Part shown: positions 3,402 through 31,532 of the stretch, one piece after another
Position numbering within the stretch: position 1 is the stretch's first letter
Layout: each line of letters begins with the position of its first letter
Source of the DNA: Clostridiales bacterium
GTDB lineage: Bacteria; Bacillota; Clostridia; Oscillospirales; Oscillospiraceae
Length of the DNA: 34,745 bases
Direction: 5' to 3'
Assembly: GCA_021202515.1 (NCBI GenBank)
Contig: JAJQCW010000071.1
Location: 1 to 34,745, forward strand
Program-made: the position numbers and the translations under genes
The notes under the pieces: model-generated
What the model saw: the letters and a program-made list of their open reading frames with translations, nothing else
Told to the model about the DNA's origin: nothing
Database searches by the model: none

Positions 3402-3560
3402 GAATGTGCAATGTGCAATGAGCAATTTGCAATGGTTGGTTTTTCAGCCGTGTTCATTGCAGAGAAGTGACTGAAAAACGAAAGCCTCCCTCGCCGCAAG
3501 GCGACAGCAAGAGGCTGGTTTTTCGCAGAATTGCACATTGCTAATTGCTAATTGCTAATT
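3402..3560. repeat. R1 repeat pair (MITE-like), copy 2
   Basis: AT-rich arms at about 3402-3434 and 3529-3560 are inverted relative to each other. The interior hairpin segment (CTCGCCGCAAGGCGACAGC, near 3490) is the reverse complement of the one in copy 1, so this copy is in the opposite orientation. It fills the gap between metH and the next gene. Its right arm ends just before that gene's ribosome binding site. Confidence 0.75.
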
Positions 3561-3576
3561 TCAAAAGGAACACCAC

Positions 3577-16100: not shown

Positions 16101-17576
16101 ATGTCTAAGGTAAACGATCTGCGCTCCGCTCTGGAGCTGCTGAAAACCCTGCCGGGTCAGTTGGTGGAGACCGACGTCGAAGCCGATCCCGTCGCGGAGA
16201 TCTCCGGCGTCTACCGCTATGTGGGTGCCGGCGGCACCGTGGAGCGCCCCACCCGCGAGGGTCCCGCGATGGTGTTCAACAACGTCAAGGGTCATCCCGG
16301 CGCGAAAGTCGTCACCGGTCTGCTGGCCAGCCGTAAGCGCGTGGGCGCGCTGCTGGACTGCCCGCCGGAGAAGCTGGGCTTCCTGCTGAAGGACAGCGTG
16401 GACAACCCCATCCCGCCCGTCACCATCCCCAACGAGCAGGCCAAGTGCCAGGAAGTGGTCCATCTGGCCACCGATCCCGGCTTTGACGTGCGCAAGCTGG
16501 TCCCCGCCCCCACCAACACCGAGGAGGACGCCGGCCCCTACATCACCATGGGCATGTGCTACGCCGCCAGCCCCGAGACTGGCATCACCGACATCACCAT
16601 CCATCGTATGTGCCTCCAGAGCGAGGATGAGATCTCCATCTACATCATGCCCGGCGGCCGTCACATCGGCGCTTTCTTCAACGAGGCCGAGGCCCGCAAC
16701 GAGCCGCTGCCCATCTCCATCTCCATCGGCGTAGACCCCGCCATCGAGATCGCCGCCTGCTTCGAGCCGCCCACGACTCCTCTGGGCTATGACGAGCTGC
16801 AGGCCGCCGGCGCCATCCGCAAGGAGCCTGTGCAGTTGACCAAGTGCCTGACCATCAACGGCAAGGCCATCGCCAACGCTGAGTACGTCATCGAGGGCGA
16901 GATCCTGCCCGGCCGCCGCATCCGTGAGGACGTGAACTCCAACACCGGCAAGGCCATGCCTGAGTTCCCCGGCTACAACGGACCCGCCAACCCCGCCCTG
17001 CCCGTCATCAAGGTCAAGGCCGTCACCACCCGCAAGAACCCCATCATGCAGAGCTGCATCGGCCCGTCCGAGGAGCACGTCTCCATGGCCGGTATTCCCA
17101 CCGAGGCCAGCATCCTGTTCATGGTCGAGCGCGCTATGCCCGGCATGGTCAAGAACGTCTATTGCTGCTCCTCCGGCGGCGGCAAGTTCATCGCCATCCT
17201 CCAGTTCAAGAAGAACCTGGCCAGCGACGAAGGCCGTCAGCGTCAGGCCGCTCTGTTGGCGTTCAGCGCCTTCGCGGAGTTGAAGTATGTGTTCCTGGTA
17301 GACGAGGACGTGGACCCCTTCGACCTGAACGACGTCATCTGGGCCATGACCACCCGGTTCCAGGCGGATACCGACCTCATCATGCTGCCCGGCGTCATGA
17401 GCCACCCGCTGAACCCCTGCAACAACCCCGCTTACTCCCCCAACATCCGCACCCGCGGCATCGCCACCAAGGTCATCTTCGACTGCACCGTGCCCTTCGA
17501 CCAGAAGGACCGCTTCCAGCGCGCCCAGTTCAAGAAGCTGGACCCGAAGAAGTGGCTGCCTGACTTCGACTTTTAA
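16101..17576 (+). CDS. ubiD: UbiD-family prenyl-FMN-dependent decarboxylase
   Basis: This 491-residue enzyme belongs to the UbiD family, which reversibly decarboxylates aromatic or unsaturated acids using prenylated FMN. The expected Arg lies in ITDITIHRMCLQ (R169). An acidic segment, AEYVIEGE (260-267), carries conserved catalytic glutamates, followed by the ILPGRR loop. A ubiX flavin prenyltransferase and an LpdD-like gene lie downstream, as for non-oxidative hydroxybenzoate or gallate decarboxylases such as lactobacilli LpdC. The substrate is thus likely a phenolic acid, but that is inference. AAAGGAGG lies 8 bp before the ATG. The gene is visibly more C-ending in codon choice than some neighbours, consistent with high expression. 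Confidence 0.93.
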   Translation: MSKVNDLRSALELLKTLPGQLVETDVEADPVAEISGVYRYVGAGGTVERPTREGPAMVFNNVKGHPGAKVVTGLLASRKRVGALLDCPPEKLGFLLKDSVDNPIPPVTIPNEQAKCQEVVHLATDPGFDVRKLVPAPTNTEEDAGPYITMGMCYAASPETGITDITIHRMCLQSEDEISIYIMPGGRHIGAFFNEAEARNEPLPISISIGVDPAIEIAACFEPPTTPLGYDELQAAGAIRKEPVQLTKCLTINGKAIANAEYVIEGEILPGRRIREDVNSNTGKAMPEFPGYNGPANPALPVIKVKAVTTRKNPIMQSCIGPSEEHVSMAGIPTEASILFMVERAMPGMVKNVYCCSSGGGKFIAILQFKKNLASDEGRQRQAALLAFSAFAELKYVFLVDEDVDPFDLNDVIWAMTTRFQADTDLIMLPGVMSHPLNPCNNPAYSPNIRTRGIATKVIFDCTVPFDQKDRFQRAQFKKLDPKKWLPDFDF

Positions 17577-17685
17577 TCAGTCACAACTTCATACATGAGT
17601 TTCCCTGGCGGGCGGGGCTTGCCCGGCCCCGTCCGCCCTCGTTCCTATCGCATTTGCACCTATAGAGGAGAAAAGAGGTATTTTT

Positions 17686-18426
17686 ATGCCAATTGGTGTT
17701 ATCATCGACTCTCTCGCCGTTGTCATCGGCGGTGTGCTGGGCGCCCTCTTTGGGAAGTACCTGAAAGAGGACTTCAAGGACCAGCTCAACATGATTTTTG
17801 GCTGCTGCTCCATGTGCATGGGCATCAGCACCATCGTCCTGATGGAGAATATGCCCGCCGTGGTGTTCTCCGTCATCATCGGCACCGCCATCGGCCTTGC
17901 CATCCATTTTGGCCAGTTGGTCAACAAGGGCGGCGTGGCCATGCAGGGTGTGGTCTCCAAGTTTGTCCACACCAACAGCAGCCTGTCTGAGGACGAGTTC
18001 ACCGCCACTCTGGTGACCATCATCGTCCTGTTCTGCGCCAGCGGCACGGGCATCTATGGCTCCATCGTCGCCGGTATGACCGCGGACAACAGCATCATGA
18101 TCTCCAAGTCCATCCTGGACCTGTTCACTGCCATGATCTTCGCCTGCAACCTGGGCCTGGTGGTCTCCCTGATCGCTGTTCCGCAGTTCATCATCTTCCT
18201 GGTGCTGTTCCTCTGCGCCGGGCTTATCTACCCCATGACAACCCCCACCATGATCAACGACTTCAAGGCCTGCGGCGGCTTCCTGATGCTGGCCACCGGC
18301 TTCCGTATGATCAAGGTCAAGATGTTCCCCACCGCAGATATGATACCAGCGATGGTCATTGTTATGCCCATTAGCTGGTTCTGGGTCACATATGTCTCCC
18401 CTGCCGTGGCTGCCCTGGCGGGGTAA
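17686..18426 (+). CDS. DUF554 family integral membrane protein
   Basis: This 246-residue protein has about seven hydrophobic helices. The N-terminal PIGVIIDSLAVVIGGVLGALFGKYL and the internal segment FCASGTGIYGSIVAGMTAD are typical of DUF554 (YdfK-like) proteins, whose biochemical role is not established. It lies 109 bp after ubiD and before a strong terminator, so it is probably co-transcribed with ubiD. It could move the acid substrate or the decarboxylation product across the membrane; this is guilt by association only. GAGG at 17673-17677 precedes the ATG by 8 bp. Confidence 0.85.
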   Translation: MPIGVIIDSLAVVIGGVLGALFGKYLKEDFKDQLNMIFGCCSMCMGISTIVLMENMPAVVFSVIIGTAIGLAIHFGQLVNKGGVAMQGVVSKFVHTNSSLSEDEFTATLVTIIVLFCASGTGIYGSIVAGMTADNSIMISKSILDLFTAMIFACNLGLVVSLIAVPQFIIFLVLFLCAGLIYPMTTPTMINDFKACGGFLMLATGFRMIKVKMFPTADMIPAMVIVMPISWFWVTYVSPAVAALAG

Positions 18427-18441
18427 GCTTCCTTTTCGCTG

Positions 18442-18477
18442 TTGCGGTCCCTCTTCTTTGCGGAGGGGGGACCGCAA
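18442..18477. other. Stable hairpin after the DUF554 gene
   Basis: TTGCGGTCCCTC pairs with GAGGG-GGACCGCAA, 16 bp after the stop codon, with no T-tract following. Its loop (TTCTTTGCG) resembles that of the terminator at 18580. It may protect the mRNA 3' end or be a decayed terminator. Confidence 0.6.
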
Positions 18478-18579
18478 TGAACCTACGGCGCGCAGCCCAA
18501 TTCGCGTGGCTTGGCTGCGGGTGCGCCCGGTAAAATCGCAGGGAGCGTCTCCTGCAAACATACGCTTTGACAGTTTTCT

Positions 18580-18615
18580 GCGGCCTTTCTCTGCGGAGAG
18601 AGGCCGCTGTTTTTA
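18580..18615 (+). terminator. Strong intrinsic terminator of ubiD-DUF554
   Basis: GCGGCCTTTCTC (18580-18591) pairs with GAGAGAGGCCGC (18596-18607) in a 12-bp stem with a TGCG loop, followed by TGTTTTTAT. The 360-bp gap 18427-18786 holds this, the upstream hairpin and the ubiX promoter, and no gene. Confidence 0.88.
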
Positions 18616-18731
18616 TAAGGGACAGACCCCACAGGAAAAACCGCGCTGGAACACCTTTTCCGCAAAATGCAAGGGGGTCTACCCAACAAAAAATAATTCT
18701 CGTAAAGGTCGAAAATTGAGGAAAAATAAGA

Positions 18732-18772
18732 TAGGCAAACTTACCATTTTACGTTATACTTACTTTGTAAGT
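18732..18772 (+). promoter_or_regulatory. ubiX promoter with overlapping dyad
   Basis: TAGGCA (18732-18737) and TATACT (18755-18760) have a 17-bp spacer. ACTTAC-TTT-GTAAGT (18758-18772) is a perfect 6-bp dyad overlapping the -10 box, and a further AAACTTACC half-site lies at 18737-18745. This arrangement suggests a repressor site. Confidence 0.55.
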
Positions 18773-18786
18773 TGGAAGGAGCAACT

Positions 18787-19347
18787 ATGAAGCGGATCAT
18801 TGTCGGCATCAGCGGCGCCAGCGGATTCCCGCTGGCGGTCTGTCTGTTGCGGGAACTGAAAAAACTGCCGGATGTGGAGACCCATCTGGTCTTTACAAGA
18901 GGGGCGGAGCTGACCGCCAAACAGGAGCTGGGCCTGGAGCCGGAGCAAATTCGGGCCATGGCGGACGTGTGTTACGACAACCGGAACGTGGGCGCGGCCA
19001 TTGCCAGCGGCAGCTTCCAGACTGAGGGGATGATCGTGGTCCCCTGCTCCATGAAAACCGTCAGCGGCATCGCCCACGGCTATAGCGACAACCTGCTGCT
19101 GCGGGCGGCGGACGTGGTCATCAAGGAAAAGCGCAAGCTGATCCTTGCGGCCCGGGAAACCCCCCTCAGCCCCATTCACCTGGACAACCTGGCTTACCTC
19201 TCCCGGCTGCAAAATGTGTACATCATGCCGCCGATGATGACCTACTACCAGGGGGCCGACACCGTGGAGAGCATGGAGCGCCACTTCACCGGCAAGCTGC
19301 TCCAGTGCTTCGGCATCGACATGGAGGGTTTCAAACGATGGAGCTGA
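18787..19347 (+). CDS. ubiX: UbiX-family flavin prenyltransferase
   Basis: This 186-residue protein would make the prenylated FMN cofactor of UbiD from FMN and dimethylallyl (pyro)phosphate. Signatures are the FMN loop GISGASGFPLA near the N-terminus, PCSMKTVSGIAHGYSDNLLLRAADV in the middle and the catalytic-region segment KRKLILAARETPLSPIHL. Length is as expected. The ATG at 18787 has GGAAGGAG 5 bp upstream; the TTG at 18772 lies ahead of this site and is rejected. It has its own promoter, separated from ubiD-DUF554 by a terminator. It overlaps the LpdD-like gene by 10 bp. Confidence 0.94.
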   Translation: MKRIIVGISGASGFPLAVCLLRELKKLPDVETHLVFTRGAELTAKQELGLEPEQIRAMADVCYDNRNVGAAIASGSFQTEGMIVVPCSMKTVSGIAHGYSDNLLLRAADVVIKEKRKLILAARETPLSPIHLDNLAYLSRLQNVYIMPPMMTYYQGADTVESMERHFTGKLLQCFGIDMEGFKRWS

Positions 19348-19721
19348 ACCGGCACTATGAGGCCCAGGTCTGCGGCATCACGCTGCTGTGCGACGTGATA
19401 GCCATGGGCCGGGACTACACCATCTGCGTCCGGGACGACCGCTGCGGCCACGTGGGGTCCGCAGCCCTGTCCGTCTCCCGGCCCAGTCTCACCGGCCAGG
19501 GGGTCAGCGCCACCACTTCGGTACTGAACTGCCTGGGCCACAAGGACGACGCCATCGCCTGCCGCTTTGCCGAGGCCGTGGCCGTCCAGCAGCGCTGTAC
19601 GGCGGTCTGTACCTGCGGCATCCACATCGACGGAATCACCCCAGAGCAGATTCAGGCGGTGCTGGAGACCTGCGAGGGATTGAAACAGCAGGTGCTGCAA
19701 GACCTGGCCGCCGAAAACTGA
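19338..19721 (+). CDS. LpdD-like prenyl-FMN decarboxylase accessory protein
   Basis: This 127-residue protein resembles small LpdD-type proteins linked to UbiD decarboxylases and proposed to act as prenylated-flavin chaperones. Features are the CGHVGSAALSVSRPS segment, CLGHKDDAIACRFAEAVA and the C-terminal CGIHIDGITPEQI. I assign it from these patterns and from its overlap with ubiX; no catalytic motif is evident. The ATG at 19338 has GGAGGG 9 bp upstream, inside ubiX, so translation is coupled. It has several Cys residues, including CTCG. No terminator separates it from the following antiporter operon, so read-through is possible. Confidence 0.65.
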   Translation: MELNRHYEAQVCGITLLCDVIAMGRDYTICVRDDRCGHVGSAALSVSRPSLTGQGVSATTSVLNCLGHKDDAIACRFAEAVAVQQRCTAVCTCGIHIDGITPEQIQAVLETCEGLKQQVLQDLAAEN

Positions 19722-19773: not shown

Positions 19774-20232
19774 ATGTTTCTTGTGTTCTTTTTGGTCTGG
19801 GTCATGCTCAATGGCCGATGGACGGTAGAGATCGCCCTGTTCGGCGTGGGCATCGCCGGGGCGATGTATGCGTTCGTCTGTGTGTTTATGGATTACAGCC
19901 CCGCCAAGGACCTGCGGCTGGCAAAAAAGCTGCCGCTGGCGCTGTGCTACGCCTACCATCTGATAGCGGAGATCGTCAAGGCCAACCTTGCCATGCTGCC
20001 CTTCCTGTTCTCCAACGAAATGCTGCCGGAACCGTCGCTGGTGCTGTTCTACGCGGACCTGAAAACCGACCTGGCCCGGTCGATTTTGGCCAATTCCATC
20101 ACCATCACCCCCGGCACCATCACCGTGGAGCAGGAGGATAACGCGTACTGCGTCCACTGCTTCGACAAGACGATGGGCGAGGGGCTGGACGAGTCCATCT
20201 TTGTCAAGCTGCTACAGCGAATGGAGGAGTGA
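19774..20232 (+). CDS. mrpE: Na+/H+ antiporter subunit MrpE
   Basis: This 152-residue MrpE/MnhE (MbhA) subunit has two N-terminal hydrophobic helices (FLVFFLVWVMLNGRW, FGVGIAGAMYAFVCVFM) and a further one at AYHLIAEIVKANLAML. A soluble domain follows with the family signature SITITPGTITVEQEDNAYCVHC. It opens the ten-gene antiporter operon. The ATG at 19774 is preferred because GGAGAGG lies 6 bp upstream; TTG at 19768 is two codons earlier. The gap to the LpdD-like gene is 52 bp and holds TATTAT (19744-19749) without a good -35 box, so transcription may come from ubiX or from an activated promoter. Confidence 0.93.
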   Translation: MFLVFFLVWVMLNGRWTVEIALFGVGIAGAMYAFVCVFMDYSPAKDLRLAKKLPLALCYAYHLIAEIVKANLAMLPFLFSNEMLPEPSLVLFYADLKTDLARSILANSITITPGTITVEQEDNAYCVHCFDKTMGEGLDESIFVKLLQRMEE

Positions 20233-20237
20233 GGGCT

Positions 20238-20570
20238 GTGAACGAGGGATATCGGATGTTTTTCCTGGTGTGCTGCGTCATTCTGACGATTCTGCTGCTG
20301 CTGTGCCTGGTGCGGGCCATCAAAGGCCCCCGGCTGGCGGACCGCATCATCGCCACCAACATGATCGGCACCATCACCATCGCCATTATCGCGCTGCTCT
20401 CCGTCTACCTGGGAGAGTCGGCGGTGCTGGACATCAGCCTGATTTACGCCGTCATGAGCTTTGTGTCGGTCATCGTGCTGTCGAAGATCTACATGGGCCG
20501 TTTCGCGGAATGGGAAAACGAGCGCGGCGCGCTGGAAGAAGAAAAGGAGGAGGAAGAGCATGGAGCTTAG
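20238..20570 (+). CDS. mrpF: Na+/H+ antiporter subunit MrpF
   Basis: This is a roughly 110-residue three-helix subunit (MrpF/MnhF, MbhB). The family signature is RAIKGPRLADRIIATNMIGT, then a helix and VLDISLIYAVMSFVSVIVLSK. The C-terminus is a charged Glu-rich tail longer than usual. The start is uncertain: GTG at 20238 has GGAGG 10 bp upstream, while ATG at 20256 has GAGGG about 7 bp upstream and fits the usual family length. Its stop overlaps the mrpG start region. Confidence 0.9.
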   Translation: MNEGYRMFFLVCCVILTILLLLCLVRAIKGPRLADRIIATNMIGTITIAIIALLSVYLGESAVLDISLIYAVMSFVSVIVLSKIYMGRFAEWENERGALEEEKEEEEHGA

Positions 20571-20883
20571 TCTGATTCGATTTGTCATTGCCGCCGTCCT
20601 CATCGCCGGGGGCATCGCGGTCATGTGCATCGCCACCTTCGGCGTGTTCCGGCTGAACACCGCCATGAAGCGGATGCACGCCGCGGCCATGGGGGATTCC
20701 ATGGGCATTGGTATGGTCATGCTGGGCCTGATCGTGGTCTACGGCCTGTCGGCCAGTTCCTTGAAGGTGCTGGCGATTTTGGCGCTGTTCTGGTGCGCCT
20801 CACCGGTCTGCTCCCACCTGCTGGCCAAGCTGGAGGTCATGACCAACCTGAACCTGGAAGACGAATGTGAGGTGCCGAAGTAA
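20560..20883 (+). CDS. mrpG: Na+/H+ antiporter subunit MrpG
   Basis: This 107-residue subunit (MrpG/MnhG, MbhC) has three hydrophobic helices and the motif ATFGVFRLNTAMKRMHAAAMGDSMGIG, typical of the family. It overlaps the mrpF 3' end by 11 bp, with AAAGGAGGAGG just upstream inside mrpF. Its TAA stop overlaps the next ATG by one base (TAATG). The E-F-G trio at the front of the operon, rather than at the end as in Bacillus mrpABCDEFG, matches archaeal Mbh/Mbs order. Confidence 0.93.
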   Translation: MELSLIRFVIAAVLIAGGIAVMCIATFGVFRLNTAMKRMHAAAMGDSMGIGMVMLGLIVVYGLSASSLKVLAILALFWCASPVCSHLLAKLEVMTNLNLEDECEVPK

Positions 20884-21191
20884 TGGATATTCTGCGTATC
20901 GTGCTGTTGGCGTCCCTCATCATCTGCGCCATTTCGGTCAGCCTCTCCCGGAACCTGCTGACCTCGGTGGTCATCTACATGGCGTTCAGCCTGACCATGA
21001 CCAGCATCTGGCTGCTGCTGGAGTCCCCGGACCTGGCTATCACCGAGGCGGCGGTGGGCGCTGGCGTGACCAGTATCCTGTTCTTCGTCACGCTGCGGAA
21101 AATCCACTCCATCCAGACAGAAGCGGCGGAAGAGATAGAAGAAATAGAAGAAAAGGAGGAGGACCATGAGCAAGCCGAATCCAAACTATAA
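20883..21191 (+). CDS. MbhD/DUF4040-type subunit (part of the MrpA C-terminal region)
   Basis: This 102-residue protein has about three helices and the DUF4040 signature SPDLAITEAAVGAGVTSILFF, which corresponds to a C-terminal module of MrpA and to stand-alone MbhD in archaeal complexes. In Mrp/Mbh structures this part lies near the proposed Na+ path. The C-terminal tail is highly acidic (EEIEEIEEKEEDHE). It overlaps mrpG by one base and the next gene by 26 bp. Confidence 0.88.
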   Translation: MDILRIVLLASLIICAISVSLSRNLLTSVVIYMAFSLTMTSIWLLLESPDLAITEAAVGAGVTSILFFVTLRKIHSIQTEAAEEIEEIEEKEEDHEQAESKL

Positions 21192-22122
21192 GGGCAGCGC
21201 CTGGGACAAATTCACCCGCTGGGTGAAGGGTACCTATGACCCAGCCGACGGCAAGCTGGAGTCCACGCCGCCCAAGGACAGGCTCTCCCCCGGCGAGCGG
21301 GCGGAGCGGATGCTGCGGGAGTACGACCAGAGCCGGTTCGAGGAGGGCGTCGCCAAGGAGATCGGCGCGTTCCAAATCATCAGCCGTATCTTCTTCGTGC
21401 TGATGGCCCTGTTTATGGTCATCGTCCTGCTGTACACCGTCAGCTTCCTCCCCGCCTTTGGCGACCCCAACTCCCCGGTGAACAACGAAGTCTCTCAGCG
21501 GTACATCGAGCAGGGCCTGGAGGAGACCGGCGCGGTGAACATCGTGGCGGGCATGATTCTGGACTACCGTGCCTTCGATACCTTCGGGGAGTCCTGCGTG
21601 CTGTTCGTAGCCCTGTGCTGCGTGACCATCCTGCTCCGGGCGGACAAGAAGAACGAAATTCGTCTGCGCATCCGGGAGGAACAGGAGACGCTGGAATATG
21701 AACCCCAGGAGGACAACATCCTCCAACAGGCGGCCAAGATACTGGTGCCGTTGATCGTCATTTTCGGCATATACGTGGTGCTGAACGGCCACATCTCGCC
21801 GGGCGGCGGCTTTTCCGGCGGGGCCATCATCGGCACCGGCCTGATTTTGCACCTGACCGCCTTCGGCGTCGGACGCACCCGTCGGTTCATGAACGAGCGG
21901 GTCATCAAGACCCTGACCGTGTGCGCCCTGACCTTCTACTGCTTCGCCAAGAGCTACTCCTTCTACACCGGAGCCAACCACCTGGAAAGCATCATCACCA
22001 CCGGCACGCCGGGGGCCATCCTCAGCGCCGGACTCATCGTCTACCTGAACATCTGCGTGGGCATCGTGGTGGCCTGCACCATGTATTCCTTCTATATTCT
22101 GTTTCGGAGGGGGGCAATCTGA
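21166..22122 (+). CDS. mrpB: MbhE-MrpB fusion subunit
   Basis: This 318-residue protein appears to join two modules that are separate genes in Mbh. The first 70 residues are a hydrophilic, charged extension. Residues about 70-165 match MbhE, the last MrpA module (TGAVNIVAGMILDYRAFDTFGES followed by a helix). Residues about 185-318 are MrpB/MbhF, with the hallmark GHISPGGGFSGGAIIGTG. Usual MrpB is about 140 residues. Together with the preceding gene it supplies the parts normally found at the C-terminus of MrpA. The start is supported by AAGGAGGA at 21152-21159; it overlaps the preceding gene. Confidence 0.87.
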   Translation: MSKPNPNYKGSAWDKFTRWVKGTYDPADGKLESTPPKDRLSPGERAERMLREYDQSRFEEGVAKEIGAFQIISRIFFVLMALFMVIVLLYTVSFLPAFGDPNSPVNNEVSQRYIEQGLEETGAVNIVAGMILDYRAFDTFGESCVLFVALCCVTILLRADKKNEIRLRIREEQETLEYEPQEDNILQQAAKILVPLIVIFGIYVVLNGHISPGGGFSGGAIIGTGLILHLTAFGVGRTRRFMNERVIKTLTVCALTFYCFAKSYSFYTGANHLESIITTGTPGAILSAGLIVYLNICVGIVVACTMYSFYILFRRGAI

Positions 22123-22123
22123 C

Positions 22124-22498
22124 ATGCTGGGCAACCTTTTGACCAACTATGAGGACGTGGCGGCGGTGATATTGTTCGTCATCGGCATGGGCAACCTGCT
22201 GCTCCAGTCCAACCTGGTGAAGAAGATCATCGGCCTGGACATCATGGACTCCGCTGTTTATCTGTTCCTGGCCTCCAAGGGCTACATCGAGGGGGGCGCG
22301 TCTCCCATCTATGTGGACGGCATCATGGATGCGTCCTATTACATCAACCCCATCCCCGCGGGCCTGGTGCTGACCGGCATCGTGGTGTCTGTCAGCGTCA
22401 GCGCGCTGATGATGGCGCTGACCATCTGCCTTTACCGGGAATACCACACCCTGAACCTGGACGAAATCATGTTGAAGCTCGGCAAGGAGGAGATGTAA
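22124..22498 (+). CDS. mrpC: Na+/H+ antiporter subunit MrpC (NuoK-like)
   Basis: This 124-residue three-helix subunit is homologous to NuoK of complex I (MrpC/MnhC, MbhG). Visible features are IGMGNLLLQSNLVKKIIGLDIMDSAV and the helix containing DASYYINPIPAGLVLTGIVVSVSVSALMMAL, whose INPIPAGLVLTGIVVS stretch is diagnostic. GGAGG lies 12 bp upstream of the ATG at 22124, which is one base past the preceding stop. It is followed without a gap by the first large antiporter subunit (TAA then ATG). Confidence 0.93.
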   Translation: MLGNLLTNYEDVAAVILFVIGMGNLLLQSNLVKKIIGLDIMDSAVYLFLASKGYIEGGASPIYVDGIMDASYYINPIPAGLVLTGIVVSVSVSALMMALTICLYREYHTLNLDEIMLKLGKEEM

Positions 22499-23995
22499 AT
22501 GACGCTGGTGCAAAACTTCCCCTTCTTCTGCATCATCCTCTCCATGTTCTCCGCCATCATCTCCTTCCCCATGAATCACCGGTGGGCCATGCGGGTCCAC
22601 CTGGTCATGGTGACGGTGGTGCTGGCGCTGTCCCTGTGCGTGCTGAACTACACCGCCTCCACGGGGGAGAGCTACACCTTCATGATGGGCCACTTCCCGG
22701 CCCCCTGGGGCAACGAAATTCGCATCGGCGTGCTGGAGGCGCTGATGGCGGTGTTTTTCAGTCTCATCATGCTGCTGTCGGTGCTGGGCGGTCTGGCCCA
22801 CATCGGCCGGGAGCTGAAAAATTCCCGGAAGAATCTGTTTTTCATTCTGCTGGACCTGCTGATGAGCTCGCTGCTGGCGCTGATTTATACCAACGACCTG
22901 TTTACGGCCTACGTGTTCATTGAAATCAACACCATCTCCGCCTGCGGCCTCATCATGATCAAAAAGGAGGGCCGGACCTACGTCTCCGCCCTGCGGTACA
23001 TGGTCATGAGCCTGGTGGGTTCCAGCCTGTTCCTCATCGCCCTGACGCTGCTGTACACCATCACGGGACAGCTCCTGATGTCCCCCGCGAAAGAGGCCCT
23101 GGCGGAGCTGGTGGCCGCGGGCGAATACGAGGTGCCCATGCTGGTCATTATCGCCCTGGTGACGGTGGGCCTGGGCATCAAGAGCGGCCTCTACCCCTTC
23201 CACACCTGGATACCCGACGCCTACGGCTACACCACCCCTTCCGCCAGCGCGATTTTGTCCTCGCTGGTGTCCAAGGGCTATCTGTTCCTGCTGATTAAGA
23301 TTTTCTACCGGGTGCTGGACTTCGAGTTCGTGGTCAGCAGCCAGGTGGTGAACCTGCTCTTTATGCTGGGTATCCTCGGCATGATCATGGGGTCCTGGCT
23401 GGCCATTAAGACCCAGAACATCCGGCGCATGGCGGCGTTCTCCTCCGTGGCGCAGATCGGTTACATCTACATGGGCATCGGCCTGGGCACCACCGCAGGC
23501 GTGGTGGCCGCCCTGTTCCACATCATCTCCCACGGCGCCATGAAGTCCCTGCTGTTCATCAGCATTTCCGGTCTCTCCGAGGTGTCCGACGACAAGTCGG
23601 ACTTCGAGTCGCTGAAAGGCGCGGGCTTCCGCAACAAACTGGCGGGGGTGGCCTACACGGTGGGGGCCATGTCCATGATCGGTATGCCCCTGCTGACCGG
23701 CTTCATCTCCAAGTATATGTTCGCCTCCGCCGCCACCACCGCCTTGCAGGGCAAGATGGTGATCGCCTGGATCGCGCTGGCCATCAGCACGATTCTGAAC
23801 ACCGTGTACTTCATGGGCAGCGTGCTGACCATCTACCACTCGGTCCCGGCGGAGCAGCGCAAGCCCCACGGCATGATGCCCTCCCGCGTGGAGTCTGTGG
23901 GAACGGTGGGACTGATCGCGCTGAACGTCGGCCTGGGCATTGCGGCCACGCCGGTCATTCAGGCCATTCAGACTGGCCTTGCCATATTTGGTTGA
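22499..23995 (+). CDS. mrpD: Large antiporter subunit 1 (MrpD/NuoN-type)
   Basis: This 498-residue proton-translocation subunit has about 14 helices. Conserved membrane residues of the NuoL/M/N family are present: E142 (FIEINTIS, helix 5), K228 (GLGIKSGLYPFH, helix 7), K259 (SLVSKGY, helix 8), K349 (SHGAMKSLL) and K405 (GFISKYMF, helix 12). The position directly after mrpC is that of MrpD/MbhH. It ends 15 bp before the next large subunit, and AAGGAGG at the end of mrpC serves as its ribosome binding site. Confidence 0.92.
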   Translation: MTLVQNFPFFCIILSMFSAIISFPMNHRWAMRVHLVMVTVVLALSLCVLNYTASTGESYTFMMGHFPAPWGNEIRIGVLEALMAVFFSLIMLLSVLGGLAHIGRELKNSRKNLFFILLDLLMSSLLALIYTNDLFTAYVFIEINTISACGLIMIKKEGRTYVSALRYMVMSLVGSSLFLIALTLLYTITGQLLMSPAKEALAELVAAGEYEVPMLVIIALVTVGLGIKSGLYPFHTWIPDAYGYTTPSASAILSSLVSKGYLFLLIKIFYRVLDFEFVVSSQVVNLLFMLGILGMIMGSWLAIKTQNIRRMAAFSSVAQIGYIYMGIGLGTTAGVVAALFHIISHGAMKSLLFISISGLSEVSDDKSDFESLKGAGFRNKLAGVAYTVGAMSMIGMPLLTGFISKYMFASAATTALQGKMVIAWIALAISTILNTVYFMGSVLTIYHSVPAEQRKPHGMMPSRVESVGTVGLIALNVGLGIAATPVIQAIQTGLAIFG

Positions 23996-24010
23996 CGGGA
24001 GGGAGAAAAG

Positions 24011-25474
24011 ATGATTGCTTTGCTGATTCCCGTGTTAATGCCCATTGCGGTGGGCGTGCTGCTGATGGTGTTCCCGCCCCGGCAGCGGAAAATCATGCTG
24101 GCCGTGGTGTTTGCGGCGCTGGCCATCAGCCTGGCCCTGGCGGTGGGAGTAGCCCTCCAGCCGGAGGACGCCCTGTGCCTGACCCTGGGCACCGTGGCGG
24201 AAGGCTTGACCTTCTATCTCCAGGTGGACGCCGTGGGCAAGCTGTTCTCGGTGCTGGTGGCCTTTGTCTGGCTGCTGGTGGGGCTGGACGCCTTTGAGTA
24301 CATGAGCCACGAGCACGACGAACCCCGGTTCTTCGGCTTTTACCTCATTGTGGAGGGCGTGCTGGCGGCCCTGTGCTACGCCGGCAACCTGTTCACCTTC
24401 TATGTGTTCTTTGAGGTGATGACCCTGACTTCTGTCCCGCTGGTCATGCACGAGCTGACCCACGAGGCGGTCATGGCGGGTCTGAAATACCTGTTTTACT
24501 CGGTGGGCGGGGCGTTTTTGTCGCTCTTCGGCCTGTTCCTGTTCACCGCCCAGGGCGCTGAGCTGACCTTCACGGCGGGGGGCGTGCTGGACAGCGCGTC
24601 TGCCTCCGGCGTGGCGCGGCTGGCGGTGTTCCTGATGATTTTGGGCTTCGGCACCAAGGCGGGCATGTTCCCCATGCACGGCTGGCTGCCCACCGCCCAT
24701 CCGGTGGCCCCGGCCCCGGCCAGCGCGGTGCTGTCCGGCGTCATCACCAAGGCCGGTGTGCTGGGCATCCTCCGCACCGTGTACTATGTGGCGGGGCCGG
24801 AGCTGATCCGGGGCACCTGGGTGCAGTACGCCTGGATCGGCCTGACGCTGATCACCGTCTTTATGGGGTCCATGCTGGCCTACCGGGAGAACGTGCTGAA
24901 AAAGCGGCTGGCCTATTCCACCGTCAGCCAGGTCTCTTATGTGCTGTTCGGCCTGTCCCTGCTCCAGCCGGTGGCCTTTGTGGGGGCGCTGCTCCATGTG
25001 GTGTTCCACTCGCTGGTGAAGAACGGCCTGTTCCTCTCGGCGGGCGCCATCATCTGCAAGACCGGCAAGACCAAGGTGGACGAGCTGAAAGGCATCGGCA
25101 AGGAAATGCCCGTGGTCCTGTGGTGCTTCACCCTGGCGGGCGTGACTTTGGTGGGTATCCCGCCCACCAGCGCCTTTGTCAGCAAGTGGTATCTGGCCAC
25201 CGGTTCGCTGGCCTCCGGTATCCCGGTGGCCTCCTGGCTGGGGCCGGTGGTGCTGCTGGTCAGCGCCCTGCTGACGGCGGGGTACCTGCTCACCGTCTCC
25301 ATCGACGCGTTCCTGCCGGGCAGCGACTACAACTATGCCGCGCTGGAAAAACACGAACCCACCTGGCAGATGCTGGTTCCCATCGTGACGCTGACCGCTC
25401 TGGCGGTGCTGCTTGGGGTCTGGCCCGGCGGACTGACGGCGCTGCTCACCAACATCGCCGGCAGCGTGCTTTGA
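24011..25474 (+). CDS. Large antiporter subunit 2 (NuoM/MrpD-type)
   Basis: This 487-residue paralog of the preceding gene keeps the full set of conserved charges: E135 (YVFFEVMTL), K216 (GFGTKAGMFPMHGWLP), K247 (GVITKAGV), K337 (HSLVKNGLF) and K392 (AFVSKWYLA). It also has the HPVAPAPASAVLSG loop, shared with subunit 4 and with complex I/hydrogenase-4 types. It should carry out proton or cation translocation in the same complex. GGAGGGAG lies about 7 bp upstream of the ATG. Canonical Mrp operons lack this extra subunit. Confidence 0.9.
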   Translation: MIALLIPVLMPIAVGVLLMVFPPRQRKIMLAVVFAALAISLALAVGVALQPEDALCLTLGTVAEGLTFYLQVDAVGKLFSVLVAFVWLLVGLDAFEYMSHEHDEPRFFGFYLIVEGVLAALCYAGNLFTFYVFFEVMTLTSVPLVMHELTHEAVMAGLKYLFYSVGGAFLSLFGLFLFTAQGAELTFTAGGVLDSASASGVARLAVFLMILGFGTKAGMFPMHGWLPTAHPVAPAPASAVLSGVITKAGVLGILRTVYYVAGPELIRGTWVQYAWIGLTLITVFMGSMLAYRENVLKKRLAYSTVSQVSYVLFGLSLLQPVAFVGALLHVVFHSLVKNGLFLSAGAIICKTGKTKVDELKGIGKEMPVVLWCFTLAGVTLVGIPPTSAFVSKWYLATGSLASGIPVASWLGPVVLLVSALLTAGYLLTVSIDAFLPGSDYNYAALEKHEPTWQMLVPIVTLTALAVLLGVWPGGLTALLTNIAGSVL

Positions 25475-25493
25475 GAGGGGAGGGAAACGCTGT

Positions 25494-26969
25494 ATGAGTC
25501 CTTATTTCATTCTGGTGCCCATTCTGGTCCCCATCCTGGCGGGAATCTTGCTGATGACCTTCCCCATCCAGGACTACAAAACCCGGGCCGTGGCGGTGGA
25601 GTCGGTGGTCATCCTCAACTCCATTTTGGTGTTTGTGCTGCTGCTGAACCGCCCGGCGGAACGGCTGTATCTGTTTTCCTTTGTGGAGGGCCTGCCTCTG
25701 ACGCTGAACATCGACGGCATGGCCACCTTCTTCGGCGGGCTGGTGGCCTTCCTGTGGCCCCTGGCGACCCTGTACACCTTTGAGTATATGCGCCACGAGG
25801 AGCGGGTCAACACCTTCCTCTCCTTCTACACCATCACCTATGGCGTGACGCTGGGTGTGGCTTTCGCGGGGAATATCGTCACCATGTACCTGTTCTACGA
25901 GGCGCTGACCATGGTGACGCTGCCGCTGGTCATCCACACCATGACCGAGGAGGCCCAAAAAGCCACCCGGAAGTATTTGAACTACATGATCGGCGGCACC
26001 GCCTTCGCCTTCATCGGCATCGTGTTCTACTCCCTGTTCTGCACGGACATCGAGTTCGTGCTGGGGGGCAACCTGGACGTTGCCAATCTGGGCGAGTACG
26101 CCAACATCGCCCTGCTGGTCTACGTGCTGGCCTTCTTCGGCTTTGGTGTGAAAGCGGCGGTGTTCCCCTTCCACGGGTGGCTGCCCTCGGCGTCGGTGGC
26201 CCCCACCCCGGTCACTGCCCTGCTCCACGCGGTGGCGGTGGTCAAGTCCGGCGTGTTCGCCATTATGCGCCTGACCTACTTCTGCTTCGGCGCGGACTTC
26301 CTGAAAGGCACCTGGGCGCAAACCGTTGTGGTTATCGCGGCGATGGTCACCATCGTCTATGGCTCCACCCAGGGCGTGCGGGAGAACCACTTCAAACGCC
26401 GTCTGGCCTACTCCACCGTCAGCAACCTGTCCTATATCCTGCTGGGCGTGACCATGATGTCCCCCTTGGGGCTGGTGGCGGGGCTGTGCCACATGTTCGT
26501 CCACGCCATTATGAAGATCAGCGGCTTCTTCTGCGCCGGCGCGGTGATGCACCAGACGGACAAGAATTACGTCTACGAGCTGGACGGGCTGGGCTACGCC
26601 ATGCCCGCCACCTTCACGGCGCTGCTGATTTCCGGCCTGTCGCTGACGGGTATCCCCCTGTTCGCGGGCTTCGTCAGCAAGTGGAGCATCGTCCAGGCCC
26701 TGCTGGAGCAGCCCTCCATCATGGGCTATGTGGGAGTGTTCGTGCTGCTGTATTCGGCGCTGATGACGGGTATTTATATGCTGTCCATCAACGTGCGGGG
26801 CTGGTTCTCCGGCGGAACTGCCGCCCGGCAGGACAGCGCCAGGTTCCACGACCCCAGTTGGCTGATGCTGCTGCCGCTGGCGATCTTCTCGGTCATCACG
26901 GTGGCCCTGGGCCTGAACGCCCAGGCGCTGCTGGCGTTCGTCCAGAGCATCGCCACCGGGACGTTCTGA
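25494..26969 (+). CDS. Large antiporter subunit 3 (NuoM/MrpD-type)
   Basis: This is a 491-residue third paralog. Key residues are retained: E136 (MYLFYEALTM), K220 (GFGVKAAVFPFHGWLP), K251 (AVVKSGVFA), K341 (HAIMKISGFF) and K396 (GFVSKWSIV). The helix 7-8 loop reads SASVAPTPVTALLH, the NuoL/M-like version, different from subunits 2 and 4. GAGGGGAGGG at about 25474-25483 precedes the ATG. Tight spacing (19 bp before, 16 bp after) places it in the same transcript and complex. Confidence 0.9.
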   Translation: MSPYFILVPILVPILAGILLMTFPIQDYKTRAVAVESVVILNSILVFVLLLNRPAERLYLFSFVEGLPLTLNIDGMATFFGGLVAFLWPLATLYTFEYMRHEERVNTFLSFYTITYGVTLGVAFAGNIVTMYLFYEALTMVTLPLVIHTMTEEAQKATRKYLNYMIGGTAFAFIGIVFYSLFCTDIEFVLGGNLDVANLGEYANIALLVYVLAFFGFGVKAAVFPFHGWLPSASVAPTPVTALLHAVAVVKSGVFAIMRLTYFCFGADFLKGTWAQTVVVIAAMVTIVYGSTQGVRENHFKRRLAYSTVSNLSYILLGVTMMSPLGLVAGLCHMFVHAIMKISGFFCAGAVMHQTDKNYVYELDGLGYAMPATFTALLISGLSLTGIPLFAGFVSKWSIVQALLEQPSIMGYVGVFVLLYSALMTGIYMLSINVRGWFSGGTAARQDSARFHDPSWLMLLPLAIFSVITVALGLNAQALLAFVQSIATGTF

Positions 26970-26985
26970 GAGGAGGATGTGTGTT

Positions 26986-29088
26986 ATGACTGGAAATCCC
27001 ATTCTCCTGCTGCTGGTGCTCGGCCCCATGGCGGCGGGTATCGTCAGTTACCTCATCGGGCGGCGAAACAAGGCCCTGCGGGATATCTTCGCCATCGCCG
27101 TCACCGTGGCGGAGGCGGCAATCATGTTGCTGCTCGTGCTGATGGGCGGGGAAGTGTCCCTGTCCGTGCCGGGGGTCTGCGGTATGGGCCTGTCCTTCCA
27201 GATGGACGGCTTCCGGGGCATTTTTGCCACCGTCACCGCCTATATGTGGATGATGACCACCATTTTCTCCCGGGAGTACCTGGCCCACTCCCGGAACCGC
27301 AACCGGTATTACCTGTTCCTGCTGCTGACCCTGGGCGCGACGATGGGGGTGTTCCTCTCCGACGACCTGTTTACCACCTTCGTGTTCTTTGAACTGATGA
27401 GCATGGCCTCTTACGTCACCGTCATTCACGACGAGAAGCCAGAGACCCTCTACGCCGGCGGCGTCTACCTGGCGGTGGCGGTCATCGGCGGCCTGGTGGC
27501 GCTGATGGGCATCTTCATGCTCTACAGCGTGACCGGCACCCTCCAGCTCTCTGAGCTGCTGGCCGCTTGTCAGGCGGCGTTCCCCGGCAACGAGGCGTGG
27601 TTCTACGTGCTGGGCGGCTGCATCCTCTTCGGCTTCGGCGCGAAGGCGGGCATGTACCCCCTCCACGTCTGGCTGCCCATGGCCCATCCCGTGGCCCCGG
27701 CCCCGGCCAGCGCCCTGCTGTCCGGTATCATCACCAAGTCGGGCATCTTCGGGGTGCTGGTGCTGTGCACCCGCATCTTCGCGGAGAACGCCTACTGGGG
27801 CTTTGTCATCCTGCTGCTGGGCGTGGTGACCATGCTGCTGGGCGGCCTCCTGGCCATCTTCTCGCTGGATCTGAAGCGGACGCTGGCCTGCTCCTCTATG
27901 TCCCAGTTGGGCTTTATCTTCGTGGGCATGGGCATGATGGACCTGCTGGGCGAGGAAAACGCCCTGGCGGTCCGGGGCACCCTGCTCCATATGTTCAACC
28001 ACTCCAATTTGAAGCTGGTGCTGTTCATGGCCGCCGGTGTGGTGGTGATGAACCTCCACAAGCTGGACCTGAACGACATCCGTGGCTTTGGCCGCAAAAA
28101 GCCCCTGCTGTGCTATGTGTTCCTGATGGGTTCCCTGGGCATCGGCGGCATCCCCCTGTTCAACGGCTACATCAGCAAGACGCTGATCCACGAGAGCATC
28201 GTGGAGTACATCGAGCTGCTGGAGGAGGGCCACAGTGTGGTCAGCTTCGCCGCAGCCAACAACGCCACCCTGTTCCACGTCATCGAGTGGCTGTTCATCA
28301 TCACCGGCGCCATGACGGTGGCCTATATGACCAAGCTGTTTGTGGTGCTGTTTGTGGAAAAGAACCGAGACCGGGCGGTGCAGGCGTCCTTCGAGGCCAA
28401 TACCCATTACTGCAACAAGGCCACCGCCGCTGTGCTGGCGGTCAGCGCCACGGTGCTGCCCATTTTGGGCGTGCTGCCTTACCTGACACTGAACAAAATT
28501 GCTGACCTGGGCCAGGGCTTCCTGAACGGCGTCTCCCCGGAGCACGCGGTCAACTACTTCTCCCTGACCAACCTGAAAGGCGGTCTGTATTCCATCGTCA
28601 TCGGCGCGGTCATCTACCTGCTGGTCATCCGGCTGGGGATGCGGGTGAAGCAGCCGGACAGGACCTATGTCTATGTCAACCGCTGGCCCAAACATCTGGA
28701 CCTGCTGGAGCTGGTCTATCGCCCGCTGGTGCTGGGCCTGCTGCCCACTGTGGCCGGGTTCCTGTGCCGCTGCCTGGACTATGTGCTGGACGGCCTGGTG
28801 TTGCTGGGCCGAAAGACCACCCACAAGCAGCTCCGGGAGGGTCGTCTGCTGCCCAAGGGCTTCGAGCTGGCCTACGTGGTGGGCAGTCTGCTGGACGGCG
28901 GAGTGGCCCTGCTGAACGCCACCTTCTGCAAGCGCAATCCCATTCAGGCGGACTTTGTGCGGTTCTTTGCCGACCAGAGCCGCATCTATGAGGAGACCAA
29001 GCGGGAGGTCATGTCCGGCGTGTCCTTTAGCCTGATGATGTTCGGCGTGGGCATTATGCTCGTGGTCATTTACCTGCTGGTGGTGTGA
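26986..29088 (+). CDS. Large antiporter subunit 4 (NuoL/HyfB/MrpA-like, long C-terminus)
   Basis: At 700 residues this is the largest subunit. The first 500 residues are a NuoL/M/N core with E136 (FVFFELMSM), K220 (GFGAKAGMYPLHVWLP), K251 (IITKSGIF), K343 (HSNLKLVLF) and K398 (GYISKTLI). The remaining 200 residues carry extra hydrophobic segments and a long amphipathic stretch, reminiscent of the C-terminal extension of NuoL/HyfB or of the MrpA N-terminal subunit; homology of this part is unproven. The ATG at 26986 is chosen because AGGAGG (26971-26976) lies 9 bp upstream; ATG at 26977 abuts it. It is the last gene of the operon, followed by a terminator. No hydrogenase, ferredoxin or quinone module follows. 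Confidence 0.9.
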   Translation: MTGNPILLLLVLGPMAAGIVSYLIGRRNKALRDIFAIAVTVAEAAIMLLLVLMGGEVSLSVPGVCGMGLSFQMDGFRGIFATVTAYMWMMTTIFSREYLAHSRNRNRYYLFLLLTLGATMGVFLSDDLFTTFVFFELMSMASYVTVIHDEKPETLYAGGVYLAVAVIGGLVALMGIFMLYSVTGTLQLSELLAACQAAFPGNEAWFYVLGGCILFGFGAKAGMYPLHVWLPMAHPVAPAPASALLSGIITKSGIFGVLVLCTRIFAENAYWGFVILLLGVVTMLLGGLLAIFSLDLKRTLACSSMSQLGFIFVGMGMMDLLGEENALAVRGTLLHMFNHSNLKLVLFMAAGVVVMNLHKLDLNDIRGFGRKKPLLCYVFLMGSLGIGGIPLFNGYISKTLIHESIVEYIELLEEGHSVVSFAAANNATLFHVIEWLFIITGAMTVAYMTKLFVVLFVEKNRDRAVQASFEANTHYCNKATAAVLAVSATVLPILGVLPYLTLNKIADLGQGFLNGVSPEHAVNYFSLTNLKGGLYSIVIGAVIYLLVIRLGMRVKQPDRTYVYVNRWPKHLDLLELVYRPLVLGLLPTVAGFLCRCLDYVLDGLVLLGRKTTHKQLREGRLLPKGFELAYVVGSLLDGGVALLNATFCKRNPIQADFVRFFADQSRIYEETKREVMSGVSFSLMMFGVGIMLVVIYLLVV

Positions 29089-29121
29089 CAATGAGCAATG
29101 TGCAATGAGCAATTTGCAATG
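29089..29121. repeat. R1 solo arm after the antiporter operon
   Basis: AT-rich R1 arm (CAATGAGCAATGTGCAATGAGC-type units, shortened here) that begins at the first base after the last antiporter stop codon. No inverted partner was seen before the next gene. Confidence 0.65.
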
Positions 29122-29163
29122 AGCTGTTGACGGTTCGCGCGTTGACTGTTCCTGAGAAGCGTT

Positions 29164-29200
29164 TCCCCACCCGTGGCGTGGCTGCGGGTGGGGATTTTCC
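29164..29200 (+). terminator. Intrinsic terminator of the antiporter operon
   Basis: CCCCACCCG (29165-29173) pairs with CGGGTGGGG (29185-29193), extended by T-A, followed by ATTTTCC and TGTTTTTG. Confidence 0.8.
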
Positions 29201-29230
29201 TGTTTTTGTGAACTTTTTGGCTTCGTCATT

Positions 29231-29298
29231 GTAGGGGCGGCCCGTGGCCGCCCTGGAAACCCACGCGGAACCTGCGGGCGGCGGAGCGCCGCCCCTAC
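29231..29298. repeat. R2 palindromic repeat, copy 3
   Basis: GTAGGGGCGGCCCGTGGCCGCCC and, inverted, GGCGGAGCGCCGCCCCTAC flank a short loop. The right arm differs somewhat from the other two copies. Length about 68 bp. Confidence 0.8.
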
Positions 29299-29304
29299 AC
29301 AAAC

Positions 29305-29348
29305 GAAGATGTTCACAGCGCGGTAAAGCGCTGATTTAGAACATCTTC
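29305..29348. other. Perfect two-tier hairpin
   Basis: GAAGATGTTC (29305-29314) pairs perfectly with GAACATCTTC (29339-29348), and CAGCGC (29316-29321) with GCGCTG (29328-29333). Together they form an almost uninterrupted 16-bp stem with a GGTAAA loop. A short TTTGCTT follows. It lies in a 595-bp non-coding gap. It could be a terminator or a structured RNA. Confidence 0.75.
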
Positions 29349-30569: not shown

Positions 30570-31532
30570 ATGTTGAAAATAGGAACCGTCGGAACCGGCG
30601 CGATCACCGAGCAGATGCTCCGCGCCATGGCCCAGGTGGAGGGCGTGGAGTGCGCCGCCGTCTGCTCCCGCAGCCAGGAGCGGGCCACCCAGTTCGCCCA
30701 GAACCACCAGATCCCCCTGGCGTTCAGCTCCCTGGAGGAGATGGTGCAGAGCCGCGACATCAACACCGTCTATCTGGCCTCTCCCAACAGCCTCCACGCG
30801 GCCCAGGCCCTCCAGGCCATCGCCGCAGGGAAGCACGTCATCTGTGAAAAGCCCCTGGCCACCACTGCGGCCCAGGCCAAAGAGGTGTTTCAGGCCGCCC
30901 GCGCCAGAGGGGTCTTTGTGTTCGAGGCCGTCTCCACCCTGTATATGCCCAACTTCCTCCGCTGCGCGGAGCTGATGCAGGAGGTGGGCCAGGTGAAAAA
31001 CGTGGTGTGCAGCTACACCCAGCGCTCCAGCCGCTACAGCGCCTACCTGCGGGGGGAGCACATCAACGCCTTTGACCCGGAGATGGAGGGCGGCGCGCTG
31101 AACGACCTGGGGGTCTACGCTGTCCACGCGGTGGTGTGGATGCTGGGCCGTCCTCACGGCGTCACCTACTTCCCCATCCGGGGCAAAAACGGGGTGGACG
31201 TGTCCGGGATGCTGACGCTGGAGTACCCCGACCTGAAGGTGGAGGTTTTCTGCGCCAAAAACTGCGCCCGGGGCAGCAGCTTCCTGCTCCAGGGCGCCGC
31301 CGCCACCCTGCGGGTGGATGGCCCCCTGAACACCTTCGGCCAGTGCTCGCTGGACACGGCGGGGCGGTCCCAGCCCTTCCAGCTCCAGGACAACGACAGG
31401 CGGCTGTGCTACGAGCTGGCCGCCTTCCGGGAGGCCATCGACGGCGGAGACCAGGACCTCTTCGAACAGATGGCCGTCCAGAGCATCGAGGTGTCCACGG
31501 TGCTGGAGCTGGCCCATAAGAATTGCCGGTAA
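30570..31532 (+). CDS. Gfo/Idh/MocA family NAD(P)-dependent oxidoreductase
   Basis: This 320-residue protein has an N-terminal Rossmann fold with GTVGTGAITEQ (5-15) for NAD(P) binding. The catalytic-Lys motif GKHVICEKPLAT is at about 87-98. The C-terminal alpha/beta domain contains GGALNDLGVYAVHA, where the family usually places its Asp/His pair. Such enzymes oxidise or reduce sugars, inositols or related polyols; the substrate cannot be inferred here. GAGGT lies about 7 bp upstream of the ATG. It has its own promoter and no sugar-pathway neighbours, so it is probably a stand-alone gene. Confidence 0.92.
   Translation: MLKIGTVGTGAITEQMLRAMAQVEGVECAAVCSRSQERATQFAQNHQIPLAFSSLEEMVQSRDINTVYLASPNSLHAAQALQAIAAGKHVICEKPLATTAAQAKEVFQAARARGVFVFEAVSTLYMPNFLRCAELMQEVGQVKNVVCSYTQRSSRYSAYLRGEHINAFDPEMEGGALNDLGVYAVHAVVWMLGRPHGVTYFPIRGKNGVDVSGMLTLEYPDLKVEVFCAKNCARGSSFLLQGAAATLRVDGPLNTFGQCSLDTAGRSQPFQLQDNDRRLCYELAAFREAIDGGDQDLFEQMAVQSIEVSTVLELAHKNCR

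Follow-up and report, generated by a model that had tools for sequence, protein, structure and literature searches.

We analyzed a 34,745-nucleotide stretch of a Clostridiales bacterium genome (GenBank assembly GCA_021202515.1, contig JAJQCW010000071.1, positions 1 to 34,745; hereafter the window), which hosts a block of genes related to Mrp-type cation/proton antiporters and to the membrane arms of Mbh and Mbs. The block consists of ten tightly packed plus-strand reading frames, from the ATG of mrpE at 19774 to the stop codon of the last gene at 29088, with spacings between neighboring genes from -26 (overlap) to +19 bases (gap). The genes run mrpE-F-G, mbhD, a fused mbhE/mrpB and mrpC, followed by four large NuoL/M/N-type subunits, here called L1 to L4 (Table 1). 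Frame by frame, Pfam assigns MNHE, MrpF_PhaF, PhaG_MnhG, MbhD, MbhE plus MnhB on a single chain, Oxidored_q2 and four times Proton_antipo_M, the last with E values of 2e-47 to 4e-54 across the four large subunits, and the ten-gene pattern is not due to chance. The exact coordinates and domain matches bear out the gene order that an earlier reading of the bare sequence (the original prediction) had proposed. For all four large subunits the top NCBIfam model stayed below half of its cut-off score, and none was used for naming.

Table 1. Features of the block and its 3' side, with positions counted from the first letter of the window; the Pfam search for mrpG used a frame starting at 20551, and PDB stands for Protein Data Bank.
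Feature	Position	Strand	Evidence
mrpE (MbhA-like)	19774..20232	+	Pfam MNHE 7.4e-25; P114 and H131 equivalents kept
mrpF (MbhB-like)	20229..20570	+	Pfam MrpF_PhaF 4.1e-15; PDB alignments: D29 kept, D35 replaced by Asn (N44 of the frame)
mrpG (MbhC-like)	20560..20883	+	Pfam PhaG_MnhG 1.6e-17; H42 and P86 equivalents kept
mbhD (MrpA C-terminal part 1)	20883..21191	+	Pfam MbhD 3.5e-19; E706 equivalent kept
fused mbhE/mrpB	21166..22122	+	Pfam MbhE 2.8e-9, MnhB 2.1e-25; D792 and E796 equivalents kept
mrpC (NuoK/MbhG-like)	22124..22498	+	Pfam Oxidored_q2 2.2e-17; S36/H37/H40 replaced by Asp/Ser/Tyr
L1, antiporter-like, adjoins mrpC, taken as proximal	22499..23995	+	Pfam, residue alignment; best solved match MbsH
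L2, antiporter-like, probable duplicate of L3	24011..25474	+	Pfam, residue alignment, tree
L3, antiporter-like, probable duplicate of L2	25494..26969	+	Pfam, residue alignment, tree
L4, antiporter-like, predicted lateral and terminal helix, taken as distal	26977..29088	+	Pfam, residue alignment, AlphaFold2, fold search
terminator-like hairpin 3' of the block	29164..29194	+	14 pairs, 10 of them G-C; T-rich tail

All four large subunits retain proton-channel residues, as had been predicted: in an alignment with E. coli NuoL/M/N and HyfB/D/F and the solved Mrp, Mbh and Mbs chains, L1 to L4 each carry the glutamate of transmembrane helix (TM) 5 and the lysines of TM7, TM8 and TM12. These sites hold in nearly every readable row of the relatives; in L2 (55 readable rows) and L3 (51), the TM5 Glu and the TM7 and TM12 Lys never vary. 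At TM8, L3 has Asn instead of Lys in 10 of the 51 rows with a letter there (L084-L090, L130, L145 and L146, mostly one branch of the family); E. coli NuoL carries Thr at this site in the alignment. An AlphaFold2 model of L4 (mean predicted local distance difference test score 89, 35-sequence alignment) has a core that resembles the family, followed by predicted helices at residues 530-554, 576-615 (the lateral helix), and, after a weak break at 616-625, 630-649 and 660-702. With an integrative MrpA-MrpD model set aside in the ranking, the best solved fold matches of L4 are MrpA chains (TM-score 0.71-0.72, by query length) and then L subunits of complex I; the root-mean-square deviation from MrpA of 12-14 means that the C-terminal parts superpose poorly. 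On this model the L4 lateral helix would cap the arm as its distal end, with L1 adjoining MrpC.

A scan that used L4 as its sole query, and so could reach only close relatives, gave 50 loci from Clostridia, mostly Lachnospiraceae and Oscillospiraceae and many from animal guts where the source is given; among them are those of the isolates Coprococcus catus (L105) and Fusibacillus kribbianus (L126). The annotated set comprises 87 loci and the window (88 in total), and 53 of these have the complete set with four large subunits. Best hits follow the order L1-L2-L3-L4 in 51 of the 53 (window included; 46 of the 51 are non-redundant), so that the ten-gene block singled out by the original prediction recurs with one layout; five of the 51 deviate from the plain gene list, three through a split gene and two through apparently long overlapping reading frame starts. 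In the remaining two (L096 and L098), the fourth subunit is of separate origin in the tree. Among the relatives of the window, 13 of 41 genomes (own included) have the four-subunit block, that of G024 being split over two contigs, and in a sample of the class it is present in at least 7 of 291 genomes, two of which (G095 and G172) have the separate kind. One genome outside the class (G398, locus L203) also has the block, with L4 cut by the contig end, and many genomes of the phylum carry three-subunit blocks with this layout. A stretch in another genome outside the class (L205) has an EFG-first block with extra L4-type genes around it, and five large subunits were counted there.

The origin of the four large subunits was assessed with two quick trees in which distant references sit on long branches: tree A (129 rows, 18 four-subunit loci and nine three-subunit blocks) and the wider tree B (96 rows, with HyfF and NuoN left out). 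Each of the four positions forms one clade in tree A (Shimodaira-Hasegawa-like approximate likelihood ratio test, SH-aLRT, 100); positions 2 and 3 are sisters (98) and group with the middle subunits of three-subunit blocks (99), and in six of the nine three-subunit blocks the first and last subunits are sister to positions 1 (98) and 4 (99). In tree B, three-subunit, redox-free, EFG-first blocks elsewhere in the phylum share the first and middle subunits, and the last subunit of five such blocks falls in another clade. Only two loci break up the position groups of the four-subunit loci there: L203, from another class, and L207, a three-subunit locus whose middle subunit falls with L2 and which seems to have lost L3. 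L1 to L4 form clades apart from the E. coli subunits, which are on long branches, and L4 does not group with MrpA in either tree. The sisterhood of L2 and L3 and their grouping with the middle subunits make it most likely that the four-subunit arm began as a three-subunit, redox-free Mrp-like block whose middle subunit was duplicated.

The block also appears to have traveled as a unit. All ten genes are closer to those of C. catus (58-79% identity) than to those of G009 (L086; 28-56%), a close relative in the same genus by the RpoB tree, which points to horizontal movement of the whole ten-gene block. Guanine-cytosine content is 61% both in the block and in the rest of the window, so either the transfer lies some time back or the donor had a similar composition.

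Complex I- or Mbh-type redox modules were not found by Pfam in the window among 20 other reading frames (a scan that did not take in all short frames), in line with the original prediction; the generic enzymes there include a Gfo/Idh oxidoreductase and an MTHFR domain. When the NuoH, NuoB, 4Fe-4S and NuoD proteins of the genome's own Mbh locus were searched against the 88 loci, none of the 53 four-subunit blocks had a homologue in its available flanks, and the matches in six loci (L072, L074, L075, L077, L078 and L082) all belong to loci without four large subunits. Redox genes constantly fused to the block in related genomes, which the original prediction had named as grounds for its refutation, were thus not found in these flanks (available around 51 blocks; median 2.6 kb upstream and 9.5 kb downstream, with at least 1.5 kb on both sides in 38 of the 51). 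No neighbor family is constant, the commonest being common to 14 loci; a 16-bit ferredoxin-type match on the opposite strand of the three-subunit locus L207 was weak and was not counted as a redox module. Elsewhere in the genome, contig 21 carries an Mbh-type [NiFe] hydrogenase locus with NuoH, NuoB, NuoD, 4Fe-4S, HypA and HypD genes and its own E-F-G-D-E-B-C-H set. A NuoH-type gene, the adaptor of known redox members, is present in nine of the 21 four-subunit genomes tested (all nine from the genus of the window) and absent from the other 12, which are listed as 93-100% complete and include two of the separate four-subunit kind (G095 and G172).

The cation path was compared site by site with that published for Anoxybacillus flavithermus Mrp, in which MrpF D35 is called invariant and its change to Leu inactivates (PMC7419157). 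Throughout the 53 four-subunit loci, all readable rows keep the equivalents of MrpE P114, MrpF D29, MrpG H42 and P86, and MrpA E706, D792 and E796, and all but one keep those of MrpE H131 and MrpC T75. At the MrpF D35 position, every one of the 54 readable four-subunit loci has Asn (two further loci, from one record, are unreadable there), and 18 of the 19 loci with a count of three large subunits have Asn or Gly, L213 being the exception. The aspartate is retained in both redox-linked loci with the gene (L072 and L082), in four solved chains, and in two of the four redox-free loci for which two large subunits were counted; the remaining pair is L209 and L064, the latter a three-subunit block whose fragmented first subunit put it in this count. 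In MrpC of the four-subunit loci, H37 is replaced by Thr or Ser in 38 of 53 letters (the rest are Ala, Gly, Cys or Asn), Tyr (50 of 53) or Phe (three) stands in place of H40, and the S36 position is Asp in 52 of 53, resembling D37 of MbhG, which has been proposed as a Na+ ligand (PMC7419157). This family-wide change at an MrpF residue thought indispensable for the cation path is a new feature, and it is best read as a retuning of the cation site.

Collectively, gene content, conserved residues, the lack of linked redox genes, the duplication history and the predicted L4 fold make it probable that the block encodes a stand-alone, redox-free group 3 Mrp-type monovalent cation/proton exchanger with a lengthened proton arm. 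Group 3 Mrp is defined by the absence of mrpA, with mrpD sometimes in multiple copies (Haja and Adams, PMC8415708), and the block falls there (CPA3) since MbhD and MbhE are separate from L1-L4, leaving no mrpA fusion, and since MrpB, MrpC, MrpE, MrpF, MrpG and at least one MrpD-type subunit with proton-channel Glu and Lys stand in one cluster. The products would assemble into a single complex in which MrpE, MrpF and MrpG with MbhD, MbhE, MrpB and MrpC make up the cation module. L1 would adjoin this module in the place of MrpD, the duplicated middle subunits L2 and L3 would extend the row, and L4 would close the far end with its MrpA/NuoL-like lateral helix. Protons would pass through the row of Lys/Glu channels, coupled at the junction of L1, MrpC and MbhD to the opposite movement of the cation. 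The number of protons per cation may then exceed the 2 H+ per Na+ proposed for canonical Mrp in the structure paper on Bacillus pseudofirmus Mrp, which describes the stoichiometry as unknown (PMC9568556).

The occurrence of other exchangers weakly supports a role in cation/proton exchange. The genome of the window has two PF02508 (Rnf) matches and one OAD_beta match, and neither a PF00999 nor a PF03553 match. Across 25 genomes of the genus, PF00999 (CPA-type exchanger, above cut-off) is found in three of the 11 that bear the block and in 12 of the 14 that lack it (Fisher p 0.005), a weak hint that the block and this exchanger may stand in for each other.

Several observations weigh against the interpretation as a long-armed exchanger, in addition to the replaced MrpF and MrpC residues. 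The PF00999 pattern amounts to 4 to 5 independent changes on the RpoB tree (21 of the 25 genomes and nine others) and is not significant in a paired sign test, completeness is just 61-80% for several of the 25 genomes, PF00999 is present in two genomes from other families that do bear the block (G033 and G038), and PF03553 shows the reverse trend (eight of 11 block-bearing genomes versus two of 14 without the block). The position of L1 differs between trees: in tree B it groups with MrpD, MbhH and MbsH (95), and in tree A with L2 and L3 (95), with MrpD and MbhH elsewhere; its best solved match by sequence is MbsH. The lateral-helix region, gauged by alignment column as the number of residues that follow the TM12 Lys, shows no consistent gain in length with added large subunits: it has 257-366 residues in 18 four-subunit loci versus 233-315 in nine three-subunit loci, 370 in L096 and 349 in L098 (both four-subunit loci of independent origin), 300 in L094, a three-subunit relative of these two, and 302 in the window. 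As several four-subunit loci are shorter here than most three-subunit loci, the lateral helix was dropped as a ruler of subunit number.

Of the two options in the original prediction, a pure antiporter and a membrane arm awaiting a partner encoded elsewhere, the evidence favors the former and makes the latter very improbable. A redox arm with its catalytic module elsewhere in the genome would explain the homology of the subunits to the arms of Mbh, Mbs and complex I, and a candidate partner exists in the hydrogenase on contig 21, but that locus has its own membrane set, no complex I-type redox gene is a conserved neighbor of the block in the available flanks, and the absence of the NuoH-type adaptor from 12 of the 21 four-subunit genomes argues against a waiting arm. 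All 14 genomes of the genus that lack the block also carry a NuoH-type gene, and the L4 lateral helix would occupy the presumed far end of the arm, the side on which Mbh appears to bind its hydrogenase module (PMC7419157). Both the redox arm with a distant partner, as unlikely, and the specific partnership with the contig 21 hydrogenase were rejected on these grounds.

A more serious competitor, which we rate a little below even, is that the block is indeed an exchanger in which L2 and L3 serve as spacers or regulators without adding coupled protons, the ratio staying near that of Mrp. In some lineages the channel of L3 may be weakened by the Asn at TM8, the lateral-helix region shows no consistent lengthening of the kind described for 2M complex I (PMC9040806), and a ratio of 4:1 would seem to go beyond plausible need at normal proton-motive force. 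The invariance of TM5 Glu and of the TM7 and TM12 Lys in L2 and L3 would, however, be unexpected for idle spacers, and the Thr of E. coli NuoL indicates that Asn at the TM8 site need not kill a channel. It is also conceivable, though rather doubtful, that the ion exchanged is other than Na+, such as K+ or ammonium, given the changed cation path. With MrpF Asp35 and both MrpC histidines of the published path replaced, the naming of Na+ as the ion is uncertain; the aspartate survives in the genome's own Mbh and in the solved chains and is lost almost throughout from the blocks with three or four large subunits. Against another ion, the new MrpC aspartate resembles the proposed Na+ ligand of MbhG, the path residues of MrpE, MrpG, MbhD and MbhE are kept in all or all but one of the readable rows, and change of D35 to Glu or Asn, harmful in E. 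coli, was not detrimental in B. subtilis itself (PMC7419157).

The genes around the block are varied. Directly upstream on the same strand (16101-19721) lie genes for UbiD, DUF554, a UbiX-type flavoprotein and PAC_bac (proteasome-assembly-chaperone-like); DUF554 also stands upstream of the block in the Lachnospiraceae loci L115 and L127, and UbiX and PAC relatives are found downstream in L132. The Gfo/Idh/MocA oxidoreductase gene (30570-31532) lies downstream, with relatives near the block in L065 and L107 (one record) and upstream in L091, and no constant link. A sigma-54-type activator family, its Pfam identity taken from L094 only, occurs near L064, L069, L094 and L097-L100 (three-subunit blocks and L098), mostly upstream on the same strand, and has a member at L129. 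Downstream of the blocks in L112, L113, L121, L130-L132, L134 and L136-L139, all Lachnospiraceae or Clostridia, there is a GGDEF protein with a periplasmic-binding-protein-like domain, or a relative of it, as identified by Pfam from L132 only. Short repeats (CAATGAGCAATG and a GGGGCGG...CCGCC palindrome) were seen by eye between the block and the next genes (29090-29330). The hairpin in Table 1 is the longest of 11 terminator-like sites in the scanned region, which as a class are not enriched there (shuffle mean 8.5, sd 3.3). At 998-5358, a gene of the B12-dependent methionine synthase type adjoins one for a two-domain homocysteine S-methyltransferase/MTHFR protein.

If the block is a long-armed exchanger, the number of modules might act as a gear, an idea that we put forward tentatively and consider unlikely as a whole. 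Three- and four-module exchangers would be built on one cation module, with H+ per cation rising with the module count, and the loss of MrpF Asp35 to Asn or Gly would retune the cation site to match; the four-module form of gut fermenters would keep up a cation gradient at very low proton-motive force. Nearly all examined blocks that have at least three modules lack the MrpF carboxylate. A redox-free series is available in which homologous cation modules carry one large subunit (P. furiosus, as published), two, three or four, so that the dependence of the H+/cation ratio on module number becomes measurable without electron transfer, and with it the protons carried per antiporter-like subunit, a question shared with complex I. 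The four-module arm is, moreover, a stable and apparently horizontally moved device of many Clostridia.

Among described systems, the stand-alone Mrp of Pyrococcus furiosus (mrpEFGBB'CD), for which Na+ influx and proton efflux at low pH have been proposed, resembles the block in being EFG-first and, as described there, in having neither mrpA nor a redox module (PMC8415708). The EFG-first order, which the original prediction had likened to Mbh, does match Mbh and equally matches this group 3 Mrp. The two differ in having one large subunit there versus four here and in their fusions, MbhD/MbhE there versus MbhE/MrpB here (PMC8415708). Canonical Mrp of Bacillus, Anoxybacillus and Dietzia (7qru, 6z16 and 7d3u) shares all subunit types, the proton-channel residues and a fold of its MrpA similar to that predicted for L4. 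It has two large subunits, with the MbhD/E part fused to MrpA, whereas the block has four and a separate MbhD/E, and it carries MrpF Asp35 and MrpC His37 and His40, where the block has Asn35 and neither histidine. Irregular group 3 clusters are also known, one with two mrpD plus mrpA (Ito et al., PMC5703873).

Pyrococcus Mbh and Mbs (6cfw and 6u8y) resemble the block in their small subunits, in gene order and in the MrpC aspartate, found in MbhG; MbsE is an MbhE/MrpB-type fusion as in the block (PMC8415708), and among solved chains L1 matches MbsH best. Mbh and Mbs have redox modules of the NuoH/B/D type and one or two large subunits, and no such genes lie in the available flanks of the block. 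Four or five pumping subunits, gained through added antiporter-like copies, have been described in 2M complex I of Nitrospira (Chadwick et al. 2018, as cited in PMC9040806), the rhizobial green complex I and Complex_I_3 of Ca. Manganitrophaceae (PMC9040806). Those forms have a full redox arm and, in two of them, a 26-residue insertion in the lateral helix, to which the block has no consistent counterpart. We found no report of a redox-free Mrp with four large subunits, nor any description of the three-subunit redox-free blocks, in the open-access PMC literature. Close relatives are these three-subunit, EFG-first blocks of other Bacillota (among L067-L100 and L202-L212), which have the same layout, mostly with Asn or Gly at MrpF position 35, and counterparts of the first, the middle and mostly also the last subunit, with a single middle subunit versus two here. 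Taken together, the block is by gene content a group 3 Mrp, and it is new by its four-module arm and its altered cation site.

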